In this document: positions 55,153 through 58,396 of the stretch, one piece after another
How the letters are laid out: each line of letters starts with the position of its first letter
How positions within the stretch are numbered: position 1 is the stretch's first letter
DNA from: Oscillospiraceae bacterium
GTDB lineage: Bacteria > Bacillota > Clostridia > Oscillospirales > Acutalibacteraceae
Assembly: GCA_015065965.1 (NCBI GenBank)
Contig: SVPH01000014.1
Span: 1-64,000, forward strand
Direction: 5' to 3'
Length of the DNA stretch: 64,000 bases
Made by a program: the position numbers and the translations under genes
The notes under the pieces: model-generated
Database searches by the model: none
What the model was told of the DNA's origin: nothing
Seen by the model: only the letters and a program-made list of their open reading frames with translations

Positions 55153-55358
55153 AAAAATAACCCCGCCAAGCCGTATGCAGCCGATTGTAACCTGCTCGCT
55201 AAGCAGGTGGGTGCCGCCCGATGCTTTCACGCTCCCTTCGTCCAATCAGGCACAAGACCTGACCGGGAGGTCTGCAATCCGTCACCGGAGCAAAGGCTCC
55301 CTTATAGTGTGTGTTGGGTTACATATAGGCTGCAAGCATATCGCACAAGGCAGGGTTT
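55153..55358 (-). ncRNA. ssrS: 6S RNA (probable)
   Basis: On the minus strand about 206 nt fold as a long rod. The ends pair AACCCTGCC with GGCGGGGTT, then GCAGCC with GGCTGC and GTAACC with GGTTAC. A central open region is bounded by AGGGAGC and GAAGGGAGC, and a hairpin ACCTGCT with AGCAGGT lies near the 3' side, ahead of TTATTTTT. This is the 6S pattern, a sigma-A RNA polymerase regulator, and several stretches (GGTGACGGATTGCAGACC, GGGCGGCACCCACC) are as I remember in Clostridia 6S RNAs. It has no coding frame. Exact ends are inferred. Confidence 0.75.
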
Positions 55359-55385
55359 CAGACTAAAATTTATTTTGAGATATTT

Positions 55386-55688
55386 TTATTCGGCTTCTTC
55401 AAAATCAAACATTTCGGCAAGTCTTTCTTCAAATGCCATGCCGACTTCGTTGAATTCCGCATCGTCTTCGATGGGGCAAAGATAGGTTTCGCCGTTTTCT
55501 TCTTCAACTTTGAGAATGATGAGTTCATTGTCCTCATCGGTTATTTTATCGGGTGTTTCGGGCAGAGGAAGCAGAGCAACATATCTGCCGCTGTCTGTTT
55601 CAATTCTGTCGAGTTCCTCAAAAATATGTTCTTTACCTTCTTCATCAATTATGCTGACGATATCGGGTGTGTATTCTTCATTGCTCAT
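55386..55688 (-). CDS. DUF1292 domain protein (YrzB-like)
   Basis: A 100-residue, very acidic protein with the DUF1292 pattern (DIVSIIDEEGKEHIFEELD, YVALLPL, LIILKVEEENGE). Function unknown; B. subtilis YrzB belongs here. The ATG follows AGAGGAAGG. The 6S RNA gene begins 28 bases after its stop, so a shared transcript is possible. Confidence 0.93.
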   Translation of the reverse strand: MSNEEYTPDIVSIIDEEGKEHIFEELDRIETDSGRYVALLPLPETPDKITDEDNELIILKVEEENGETYLCPIEDDAEFNEVGMAFEERLAEMFDFEEAE

Positions 55689-55809
55689 GGGGATTTTACC
55701 TTCCTCTCTTGGTGTAATTATATTTTAACCGCAATCGCGGATTTAGTCAATAGAAAATAATGATAAGTGAAAAATATCCAAAAGTTTTTAACTTTTTCAT
55801 AAAAAACTA

Positions 55810-55838
55810 TTGACAAACGCTAAAAAGCGTGCTATATT
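55810..55838 (+). promoter_or_regulatory. Consensus promoter of the structured RNA
   Basis: TTGACA at 55810-55815 and TATATT at 55833-55838 are 17 bp apart. The spacer holds the palindrome ACGCTaaaaAGCGT. Confidence 0.8.
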
Positions 55839-55844
55839 ATAGTC

Positions 55845-56250
55845 GAGGAAAGGAACAAGGGTAAATAAAAACACCTTAAGAACTTTCAAGCAGTAAAAAC
55901 TTGATTAATCCAAAAGGTGATAAATCTCAAAAAGATTTTATTCATAATTCCCTTGCAATCCTCTTGACCATATATCATAAGCCACAGGTCAAAAAAACAA
56001 TTTGATAATTACGGAAAGGCGGCGATACCCGATGTACCTTGAAGCGCATCAGTTCGCAGCCGCAGAAATCAACCACAGATAATAAAGCGGAATTTAAAGG
56101 TGAAATCAGATTAATATTTCAATCTGCAAAGAGCCTGTTAAACCGCAATTCAAACAAATTGATTGTTTATTAGGTTGACAGGCGGCTGCGAGCAGAAAGA
56201 AAATTGAATATGAAATAGTAAGGGAACCATGCAAAAAGCATGGTTCTTTT
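55845..56250 (+). ncRNA. Large structured RNA of unknown family
   Basis: About 400 nt without a convincing coding frame, bounded by a consensus promoter and an intrinsic terminator. Possible stems: CACCTT (55872-55877) with AAGGTG (55914-55919) enclosing TCAAG/CTTGA; AAATCT (55922-55927) with AGATTT (55933-55938); TTGACC (55965-55970) with GGTCAA (55987-55992). A perfect 10-bp long-range stem TCGCAGCCGC (56054-56063) with GCGGCTGCGA (56182-56191) closes a multibranch domain. Inside lie CAGATT/AATCTG, CCTGTTAAACC (56134-56144) with GGTTGACAGG (56173-56182), and AAACAA/TTGTTT. It lacks the signatures I know for RNase P, tmRNA, SRP, 6S and T-box RNAs. recJ starts 110 bases past its end. Confidence 0.7.
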
Positions 56251-56251
56251 T
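56224..56251 (+). terminator. Terminator of the structured RNA
   Basis: GAACCATGC with GCATGGTTC, a five-A loop, followed by TTTTTG. Confidence 0.9.
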
Positions 56252-56359
56252 GTTTTTGCAGTCATTTGACTATGACATTATTAATAAATATATTTATTTT
56301 TCTTGAAATATTTATCTATAGGTGTTATACTTATAGGATATTGAAAGGAATGATTATTT

Positions 56360-58396
56360 TTGAGACGCAAGAAGTGGGTAGTAACAAAAGGTAATAAGGA
56401 CCTTGCAGCGCAGATTGCTCAGGAACTCAGCGTTGATCCTTTTGCTGCTTTGCTTGCTACTTCAAGAGGCTTTGACAATATAGACGAAATAGGCGATTTT
56501 TTTGACCCCGATGCACCGCTGCAACTTTCACCGCTGTCAATTGCGGATATGGGCAAAGCGGCGGAGAGAATCAACAGAGCAATAGATGAATTTGAGTTTA
56601 TCTGCGTTTTCGGTGATTATGATGCTGACGGTGTAACTGCAACCGCTCTTCTTTATTCATATCTTGAAACAAGGGGAGCAAACGTTATCCGCTATATTCC
56701 CGACAGACTTACCGAAGGCTACGGTCTTAATATCAGTGCGGTTGAAAAGTTGGCTGATATGGGTGTTAAACTCATTATAACCGTTGATAACGGTGTTTCC
56801 GCAATTGATGAGGCAATCCGTGCAAAAGAACTCGGTATCGACCTTGTTGTAACCGATCATCATAAAGTCGGAGAAGTTTTGCCTGATGCAGTTGCGGTTG
56901 TTGACCCTCATCGCAGCGATTGCCCAAGCAGTTTCAAAGAGATGTCAGGCGTAGGCGTGGCATTCAAACTTGTTTGTGCTCTTGAAGGTGATGACGGGGA
57001 TATTCTTATTGAAGAATACGGCGATCTTGTCGCACTCGGAACCATTGGCGATGTTGTTACTCTTACGGGGGAAAACAGGGTTATGGTTCGCAGAGGGCTC
57101 AGGCTTATAAATGAAAATCCCAGACCCGGTATAAATGCTCTTATGGAGATTGCAGGGGTAAGCGAAAAGTTCTTCTCTGCTTCAACAGCCGCCTTTACCG
57201 TCTGCCCGAGAATCAATGCGGCAGGCAGAATGGGTTCTGCTCATAAGGCACTTGATTTGCTGCTTTGTGAAGACGAAGAACTTGCAGAGCAACTTGCAGA
57301 AGAGATAAATCAGATGAATATTCAGCGCCAGCAGACTGAAACTTCGATTTTTGCGCAGGTGCAGTCAATGCTTTCTGCAGGTTCGGATATGCTCAATGAC
57401 AGAATAATCGTTGTTGATGGCGAAGGCTGGCATCAGGGCGTTATCGGTATTGTTGCGGCAAGAATAACTGAGAGATACGGCAGACCTTGTGTTGTTATTT
57501 CGCGTGACGGTGAAACTGCACGCGGTTCGTGCCGAAGCATAGAAGGGTTCTCTATATATGATGCCATTGAGGCAGTTTCGGATTGCGTTGACCATTTCGG
57601 CGGACATACTCTTGCTGCAGGTCTCGGTCTTGATTCATCACGCATTGAAGAGTTCCGCAGAAGGATTAATGAATATGCGGCAGATAAAGAAATGCCGTTT
57701 GCTCTCCAGAAGGTTGACTGCCGTTTGCTGCCAAGTTCAATAAGTCTCAATATTCTCTCTGCAATCGGTATGCTTGAACCTTTCGGCTCGGGGAATCCGC
57801 AGCCGTGTTTCGGACTTTTCGGTGTAAGAATAGATGAAATTGCCGGCGTTTCCGACGGAAAACATATCCGTATGGTTATATCGAAGAACGGCGCAAGAAC
57901 GGGCGTTGTGTATTTCGGTATGGCGGAGAGAAGATTCCCTTATGAAAAGGGCGATGTTGTTGACCTTGCCGTTAACCTTGACAGAAATGTTTATAACGGA
58001 GAAACAAGAGTTTCCGTTATTGTAAGAGGAATCAGACCTTCACTTACGGAAGAGGAAAAAGTGCTTTCCGCAATCAGTCTTTATGAGAAATTCTCAAGGC
58101 ATGAAAAACTGACAGCCGACGAAGCAACCTGTATTTTGCCTGACAGACAACTTCAGGTTGATGTTTTCAAGAGCATCAAGGCAAAACCGCTCAGGGACAG
58201 ATGTTATGAATCGCTCTGCATCAGATTGGGCGATAACGGTTCAAGTCTTGCTAAAATAAATGTAATTGTTGATATTATGCTTGAAATGGGCATTCTTGAG
58301 GCGGATATTGAGGATGTAATCCGCGTTCCGGATAATCCGCCTAAAGTAAATCTCGAAGATTCGGAGATAATGAAAAGGATCAGAAGTTTTCTTTGA
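56360..58396 (+). CDS. recJ: Single-stranded DNA 5'-3' exonuclease RecJ
   Basis: A 678-residue RecJ. DHH-type motifs are FGDYDADGVTAT (about 79-90), VTVDNG-like ITVDNG, TDHHKVGE with D166-H167-H168, and the DHHA1 motif FGGHTLAAGLG near 410-420. It degrades single-stranded DNA in recombination and mismatch repair. It starts at TTG with AAAGGA eleven bases upstream. It heads the recJ-rel-dtd-MBL-hemZ run. Many Firmicutes have apt between recJ and rel; it is absent here. Confidence 0.96.
   Translation: MRRKKWVVTKGNKDLAAQIAQELSVDPFAALLATSRGFDNIDEIGDFFDPDAPLQLSPLSIADMGKAAERINRAIDEFEFICVFGDYDADGVTATALLYSYLETRGANVIRYIPDRLTEGYGLNISAVEKLADMGVKLIITVDNGVSAIDEAIRAKELGIDLVVTDHHKVGEVLPDAVAVVDPHRSDCPSSFKEMSGVGVAFKLVCALEGDDGDILIEEYGDLVALGTIGDVVTLTGENRVMVRRGLRLINENPRPGINALMEIAGVSEKFFSASTAAFTVCPRINAAGRMGSAHKALDLLLCEDEELAEQLAEEINQMNIQRQQTETSIFAQVQSMLSAGSDMLNDRIIVVDGEGWHQGVIGIVAARITERYGRPCVVISRDGETARGSCRSIEGFSIYDAIEAVSDCVDHFGGHTLAAGLGLDSSRIEEFRRRINEYAADKEMPFALQKVDCRLLPSSISLNILSAIGMLEPFGSGNPQPCFGLFGVRIDEIAGVSDGKHIRMVISKNGARTGVVYFGMAERRFPYEKGDVVDLAVNLDRNVYNGETRVSVIVRGIRPSLTEEEKVLSAISLYEKFSRHEKLTADEATCILPDRQLQVDVFKSIKAKPLRDRCYESLCIRLGDNGSSLAKINVIVDIMLEMGILEADIEDVIRVPDNPPKVNLEDSEIMKRIRSFL

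Follow-up and report, generated by a model that had tools for sequence, protein, structure and literature searches.

6S RNA controls RNA polymerase by acting as a promoter mimic. SgrS and RNAIII are dual-function RNAs with a short open reading frame (ORF), and in minigene toxicity the translation of very short ORFs leads to peptidyl-tRNA drop-off. VcdRP is described as a regulatory-type RNA with a short ORF. CsrB-like decoys are described as repeating a protein-binding motif (PMC8058203), the aprE and cry (STAB-SD) leaders as combining a strong Shine-Dalgarno (SD) sequence and a 5' stem-loop with stabilisation of the RNA by a bound 30S subunit (PMC7509114), and OLE RNA as mimicking the SD/anti-SD duplex and binding bS21 (PMC12054373).

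The RNA gene described here lies in a stretch of 64,000 nucleotides from an Oscillospiraceae bacterium (positions 1 to 64,000 of contig SVPH01000014.1), which we refer to as the window. The gene and its neighbours are as follows:

55810–55838, forward strand: promoter TTGACA-17-TATATT with TG before the -10 element, 11 of 12 consensus matches.
55845–56250, forward strand: predicted transcript from just past the promoter to the terminator stem, conserved in relatives.
56220–56250, forward strand: intrinsic terminator stem-loop, a 13-pair stem followed by T's.
55386–55688, reverse strand: DUF1292 gene, the divergent neighbour; this adjacency is shared by 17 of 18 group-1 genomes and by six other genera.
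55156–55359, reverse strand: 6S RNA gene, one gene off (RF00013, 55.1 bits).

The earlier note, made from the letters of the window, had proposed a stand-alone structured RNA with a consensus promoter and an intrinsic terminator. Both signals are present, and the fold and the covariation in homologues likewise bear out this description. The minimum free energy is -103.8 kcal/mol as compared with -74.0 ± 4.7 kcal/mol for 100 dinucleotide shuffles (z -6.3), none of which was as good. Going by the position of the -10 element, the 5' end of the RNA should fall near 55845. TTGACA is exact in all 37 tabulated homologues, including three (L163, L170 and L172) that had been selected using the promoter pattern, and TGn is found in 33 of the 37. 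A terminator hairpin plus T-run was read by eye in relatives of group 1, the 18-member group to which the RNA of the window belongs. As the earlier note had it, the terminator ends about 110 nt ahead of recJ (TTG at 56360), which has a promoter-like site of its own at 56303–56331.

A conserved sequence (approximately GAAAAACTATTGACA) at 55785–55815 reaches into the -35 element in the window and in relatives. Many relatives have AACTTTT or a palindrome further upstream. The conserved stretch is possibly an UP element or a regulator site.

The whole window was compared with all 4227 families of Rfam 15 by cmscan; the library includes models named for raiA, ROOL, OLE, GOLLD, RNase P, SRP and T-box. 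At the gathering threshold the window contained two tRNAs and 6S RNA (on the other strand), and nothing was found on the RNA itself, where matches at E ≤ 10 were far under their cut-offs (the best had 24.2 vs 60 bits). A comparison of 37 loci (relatives and look-alikes) with Rfam gave 23 matches, all to the neighbouring 6S RNA. A known RNA family was therefore rejected. The scan, which had been suggested as a check, agrees with the reported lack of RNase P, tmRNA, SRP, 6S and T-box signatures and places the RNA in no catalogued class; the guess that it might be of the raiA, ROOL or OLE kind found no match. An identity as tmRNA was dropped, as the RNA has no RF00023 match and its own genome has a tmRNA elsewhere (over cut-off at G000:C19:41265-41613). 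6S RNA was dropped too, RF00013 matching only at 55156–55359 on the opposite strand. In the full-text literature, with most subscription journals outside the scope, no paper was recognised as describing this RNA, and neither there nor in Rfam was a catalogued RNA found that mimics a start for initiating ribosomes. The main text of PMC8040213 contains none of the terms Oscillospir-, Ruminococc-, recJ, DUF1292 and 6S RNA. The RNA class is well supported; the function is one that we infer.

The RNA has one DNA match in its own genome; two weak matches of covariance model R2 elsewhere in it are ordinary gene starts. By blastn it was found in 16 of 60 genomes (its own included), all from a single genus. 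Model R1 (16 sequences) detected it in 28 of the 45 genomes of this genus with E ≤ 0.01. Model R2 was built on nine divergent members only and detected it in 31 of them (E ≤ 2e-8); these include every one of the 18 group-1 members, which had been absent from its training set. Nine regions with weaker R2 matches in the genus were read: G035 and G036 carry the RNA on inspection, G061 has a related mini-ORF RNA and six are not real; in G014 the RNA is cut by the contig end. Eleven of the 15 high-quality genus genomes have the RNA, which is missing or a remnant in G013, G016, G026 and G031, and it is therefore dispensable. The remnant in G026 (L069, upstream of DUF1292) keeps the promoter, a short hairpin and the terminator and has lost the ribosome-binding site (RBS) and ORF. 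Among named contigs, the group-1 pattern occurs in 17 metagenome-assembled Clostridia, 16 of them from herbivore gut or faeces.

R1 gave six matches at E ≤ 0.01 in 245 genomes of the order, one being the window and the other five judged not to be the RNA (L048, L049 and L052 were read, L050 and L051 judged by short partial matches only). In 250 genomes of the family, R2 gave 17 matches at E ≤ 0.01. Two came from the genus, L130 and L143 are real by inspection, and the remaining 13 were classed as ordinary gene starts or leader mini-ORFs (of the 15 loci from other genera, 12 were read; L132, L133 and L136 were judged by ORF list only). R2 also gave 15 matches at E ≤ 0.005 in 345 order genomes, none of the 14 besides the window being judged real. 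A crude pattern of promoter, RBS and short ORF is present in four of 28 DUF1292 loci of other genera, and two patterns had no match on viral contigs.

The claim that the region has no coding frame proved wrong, and a strictly non-coding RNA is not what we find, as translation start, short ORF and stop are conserved:

56013–56026, forward strand: extended SD sequence GGAAAGGCGGCGAT, forming a very strong duplex with the 16S tail.
56032–56082, forward strand: short ORF of 16 codons plus TAA (MYLEAHQFAAAEINHR), with counterparts in 37 homologues.

The median SD duplex energy is -17.3 kcal/mol in the 37 homologues vs -10.6 for 40 genes of the window and -4.4 for 500 random sites (p 8e-13 against the window genes), computed with a generic 16S tail and with the window-gene starts chosen for best SD. 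The ORF has 11–20 codons and starts with ATG in 35 homologues and TTG in two; because the 37 are the homologues with a readable start, finding it in each of them is partly a product of this choice. The strength of the SD sequence and the geometry do not follow from it. Outside this table stand G009 (5' end cut), G014 (contig end) and G026 (degenerate) as well as the array types G061, G307 (L171), G577 and G521. In all 18 group-1 members the ORF has 14–16 codons; its length differs by whole codons only, and TAA and TGA swap at the stop.

The encoded peptide is not conserved. For 14 of 17 group-1 ORFs with 15 codons (G001 omitted), pN/pS is 1.09 in codons 3–7, 0.39 in codons 8–11 and 1.50 in codons 12–15. 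Codons 8–11 belong to helix P3 (see below), whose pairing constrains the bases; outside P3, the three codon positions are similarly variable. The frame through P3 is shifted in G018, where it reads MFRSDILARSS and stops soon after P3, and the peptides of divergent members have little common ground. As far as the substitutions tell, the ORF is without selection for peptide sequence. A peptide gene was rejected on these grounds, the amino acids drifting outside P3, and the conserved peptide expected of a dual-function sRNA is not found in the 14 ORFs. A small mRNA, with the 15-residue peptide as its product and the RNA structure secondary, would account for the retained start and stop, the very strong RBS and the whole-codon length differences in group 1, but it is improbable in view of the pN/pS values, the similar variation of codon positions, the shifted frame in G018 and the dissimilar peptides of divergent members.

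Codon 2 of the main ORF has the form U-N-Y (U at +4, pyrimidine at +6) in 33 of 37 homologues, being UAC in 27; most mini-ORFs (see below) have this form as well. One gene of the own genome, pyrH by eye, has a partly similar RBS.

Accessibility of the RBS is modestly raised (0.51 vs 0.44 unpaired; the percentile averages 0.70, and seven of 37 RNAs are below 0.5), the figures for G004 and G290 coming from an overlong stretch, as these have no terminator within 800 nt. It decides little between the readings discussed below.

The conserved helices and one further element of the RNA are listed here:

55856–55861, forward strand: 5' strand of P1 (CAAGGG), pairing with 55950–55955.
55950–55955, forward strand: 3' strand of P1 (CCCTTG), pairing with 55856–55861.
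55964–55969, forward strand: 5' strand of P2 (TTGACC), pairing with 55987–55992.
55987–55992, forward strand: 3' strand of P2 (GGTCAA), pairing with 55964–55969.
56052–56063, forward strand: 5' strand of P3 (GTTCGCAGCCGC), from +21 of the ORF, pairing with 56182–56193.
56182–56193, forward strand: 3' strand of P3 (GCGGCTGCGAGC), pairing with 56052–56063.
56087–56097 (56087–56090 plus 56093–56097), forward strand: 5' strand of P4, pairing with 56138–56146.
56138–56146, forward strand: 3' strand of P4 (TTAAACCGC), pairing with 56087–56097.
56107–56112, forward strand: 5' strand of P5 (CAGATT), pairing with 56121–56126.
56121–56126, forward strand: 3' strand of P5 (AATCTG), pairing with 56107–56112.
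56200–56211, forward strand: conserved, unpaired-looking AAAATTGAATAT 3' of P3, with small changes across 23 sequences (alignment A3).

A perfect 10-bp stem between 56054–56063 (TCGCAGCCGC) and 56182–56191 (GCGGCTGCGA) had been pointed out in the earlier note. It is exact at these positions and lengthens to the 12 pairs of P3, one of which is G-U. Covariation in homologues, which the note had named as a further check, is present: in 23 sequences, 95.6% of the 273 cells of P3 are paired, double changes occur in eight of the 12 pairs, and none of 500 shuffles was as high, while slid partners pair in just 27–49%. The best P3-type helix, of 7–17 bp, outperforms shuffles (p ≤ 0.015) in 31 homologues of the 37 and is non-significant in six (G064, G021, G404, G380, G290 and G297). 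In G472, from another genus, the counterpart of P3 has 17 bp of unrelated sequence.

Two helices lie inside P3. P4 shows double changes in four of nine pairs (82.4% of cells paired) and P5 in five of six (82.8%). P2, with 96.9% of cells paired, lacks support from covariation because it is almost invariant. When P2, P4 and P5 were analysed for covariation, the count of further pair types, one of five measures used, did not exceed that of shuffles (211 of 500). P1 varies in sequence and stays complementary (Fisher p 1.7e-8 for 37 RNAs, 1.9e-6 for a subset of 19, significant individually in only nine of 37), the tests for the helices not being independent as the sequences are related. Except for P1, the 5' domain varies freely. 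Group 1 has a conserved hairpin, CTCTTGACCATA. A pseudoknot of CATATA (after P1) with AATAT (after P3) was considered by eye and given up.

P3 starts at +17 to +22 relative to the start codon in 32 of 37 homologues, within a search range of about +15 to +40, and the best helix is elsewhere in five; in 29 of 37 it both starts there and is better than shuffles. The mRNA footprint of an initiating ribosome reaches about +17 to +22. Because the footprint covers about that much mRNA, P3 would be located at the mouth of the initiating ribosome.

The comparison suggests that the tiny peptide is unimportant and that the RNA works by engaging ribosomes. Ribosomes, we infer, are meant to load on the RNA, and the peptide is not the point. 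In our best reading, to which we give a probability of roughly 0.4, the RNA acts in trans by capturing or sensing initiating ribosomes. Ribosomes would load very efficiently via the very strong SD sequence and be slowed by P3; P3 would then be unwound, and the ribosomes would stop and recycle. As a putative decoy, the RNA would occupy initiating 30S or 70S ribosomes and tune translation. Alternatively, the open or closed state of P3 may report the supply of initiating ribosomes.

The chief rival to ribosome capture is another kind of trans-acting regulatory RNA, which would pair with mRNA or hold a protein and use ribosome loading only for RNase resistance or refolding of P3, like the strong-SD aprE leaders. 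The RBS may then do no more than stabilise the RNA, whose actual function would be another one. This would explain why elements other than the RBS are conserved, namely P1, P4, P5, the group-1 hairpin and AAAATTGAATAT. The position of P1 at the 5' end is compatible with 5' protection, and 30S binding without translation can stabilise RNA in Bacillus according to PMC7509114. However, no unpaired seed apart from AAAATTGAATAT is conserved across groups, and such a role alone leaves the fixed distance between P3 and start codon and the tandem start-stop units of some relatives unexplained. We regard this explanation as possible, if doubtful.

In 17 of the 18 group-1 genomes, DUF1292 lies between 6S RNA and the RNA described here. 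Six other genera of the family, with DUF1292 and 6S RNA both confirmed, have an RNA-like locus at this spot, which contains a main ORF in L130, L143, L163, L170 and L172 and is an array in L171. In the 18th group-1 member (G001), the RNA is found on a 5-kb contig beside a reading frame that by eye resembles a tyrosine recombinase. Synteny breaks just upstream of the RNA promoter in this locus (L015, G001:C90), possibly an integration site. G033 and G036 keep the DUF1292 position among 14 tabulated divergent members; in the other 12 the RNA is elsewhere or there is no DUF1292 in the fetched stretch. Since the spot between DUF1292 and 6S RNA is shared across genera, it is probably the old position, from which the gene later moved.

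The downstream side has no fixed gene among relatives (partly by eye). recJ follows directly in some of them only; elsewhere there is a different gene, or recJ is some 1.2 kb away or not within the fetched stretch, and the next gene is sometimes on the opposite strand. The statement that the RNA is not a recJ leader thus stands. A leader in which translation controls terminator readthrough into the following gene (in the window, recJ) would have the classic layout found here, where a short ORF overlaps one side of a long-range helix and a terminator follows, and recJ is downstream in several relatives. Against such an attenuator are the differing or oppositely oriented next genes, the promoter-like site of recJ and a terminator hairpin that is separate from P3. 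We consider a leader-peptide attenuator highly unlikely, as a conserved regulated gene directly downstream was not found among the relatives, and a recJ leader was rejected.

Some relatives have further translation starts. Eight divergent RNAs carry 16 extra RBS-start units 3' of the main ORF, all of 3–7 codons. Shuffled downstream sequence gave such short units in one of 5000 cases by the sum and in none of 5000 by the maximum, and with one unit per RNA, a weaker result, in 57 and nine of 5000; these two tests are the ones cited, a Fisher combination of the single P values giving about 0.2 (by hand), and the motif was defined after several units had been seen by eye, unit length being outside the motif. 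The median SD energy of the mini-ORFs, -12.6, is stronger than at random sites and does not differ significantly from ordinary genes (p 0.08). By the mini-ORF regex, the RNA of the window has a single RBS and no extra unit, as do most group-1 RNAs.

At least two further units are present in four of the 37 tabulated RNAs (G018, G021, G035 and G064) and in L157, L160 and L171. In G035, five further units that have a start and one that lacks it were seen by eye; four are found by pattern. Three units occur in each of L157 and L160, which belong to another genus, and behind them come a further short ORF and a terminator. In yet another genus, the DUF1292 spot is occupied by an array (L171), and because of this shared position arrays and single-ORF RNA are taken as related. 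The kinship of L152, L157, L159 and L160 with the RNA is a likeness of design only. A two-unit pattern (one base C-to-ATG and at most 45 between units allowed) matched in three of 398 family genomes, one match being judged chance, and in none of the 45 genus genomes, where it misses the units of G018, G021, G035 and G064 because of its tight spacing limits. A CsrA sponge was set aside, as by eye GGA is missing from the stretch between RBS and start in most mini-ORF units.

In L157 and L160 (both G577) and L152 (G061), a promoter-like site is followed by between one and three start-stop mini-ORFs. This type, present in two copies in G577, ends with a conserved MLDIKSEQK-like short ORF and a terminator. 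In L131, L134, L139–L142, L150, L189–L192, L194 and L197, from several genera of at least two families, genes are likewise directly preceded by a strong RBS and a start-stop or short ORF. The genes behind these leader mini-ORFs look secreted or exported by eye.

The mini-ORFs recall minigenes. An RNA of this type would cause peptidyl-tRNA drop-off by means of very short ORFs and tie up particular tRNAs, as the lengths of 3–7 codons in eight RNAs and the bias at +4 and +6 of the main ORFs might indicate. The conserved unit, however, is the main ORF of 11–20 codons, and most group-1 RNAs, that of the window included, have no mini-ORF by regex. We therefore see very little chance that the RNA acts in this way.

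For ribosome capture, tandem units of RBS, start, a few codons and stop would raise the decoy capacity by repetition in some relatives. A more specific version, which we offer tentatively and think unlikely to hold in full, makes the RNA the translation counterpart of 6S RNA: a start mimic that would trap or count initiating ribosomes, with the helix as a brake and tandem units adding capacity. The design is compact and testable (very strong SD sequence, start, about 20 nt, helix, stop), and relatives provide a natural series from one ORF up to about five further tandem units. RNAs with a neutral peptide and a conserved start can evade both gene callers and catalogues of non-coding RNA.

As described in the papers cited above, none of CsrB, the aprE and cry leaders and OLE has a unit of RBS, start, helix and stop as its conserved core. 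The repeated motifs of the CsrB and RsmZ decoys are analogous to the tandem RBS units of some relatives; their motif is GGA, whereas here it is RBS-start-stop, present once in the RNA of the window, and the target would be ribosomes. The aprE and cry leaders share the strong SD sequence and the 5' stem-loop. They are leaders of messages, in contrast to an RNA that ends at its own terminator with no message before it and has a covarying long-range structure spanning the ORF. The dual-function RNAs (VcdRP, SgrS and RNAIII) are regulatory-type RNAs that also carry a short ORF, but the peptide encoded here is not conserved (pN/pS 1.09 and 1.50 in 14 ORFs). OLE is likewise a large structured RNA of Bacillota linked to translation initiation; it mimics the anti-SD, whereas here an SD sequence, start codon and ORF are found, and its Rfam model does not match. 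tmRNA (RF00023) is similar as a stable RNA in which structure encloses a short ORF, but the RNA described here has its own RBS and start codon. 6S RNA, for its part, is a stand-alone gene, lies one gene from the RNA and mimics the template of a central machine; the RNA itself has no RF00013 match, and its mimicry would be of a translation start.
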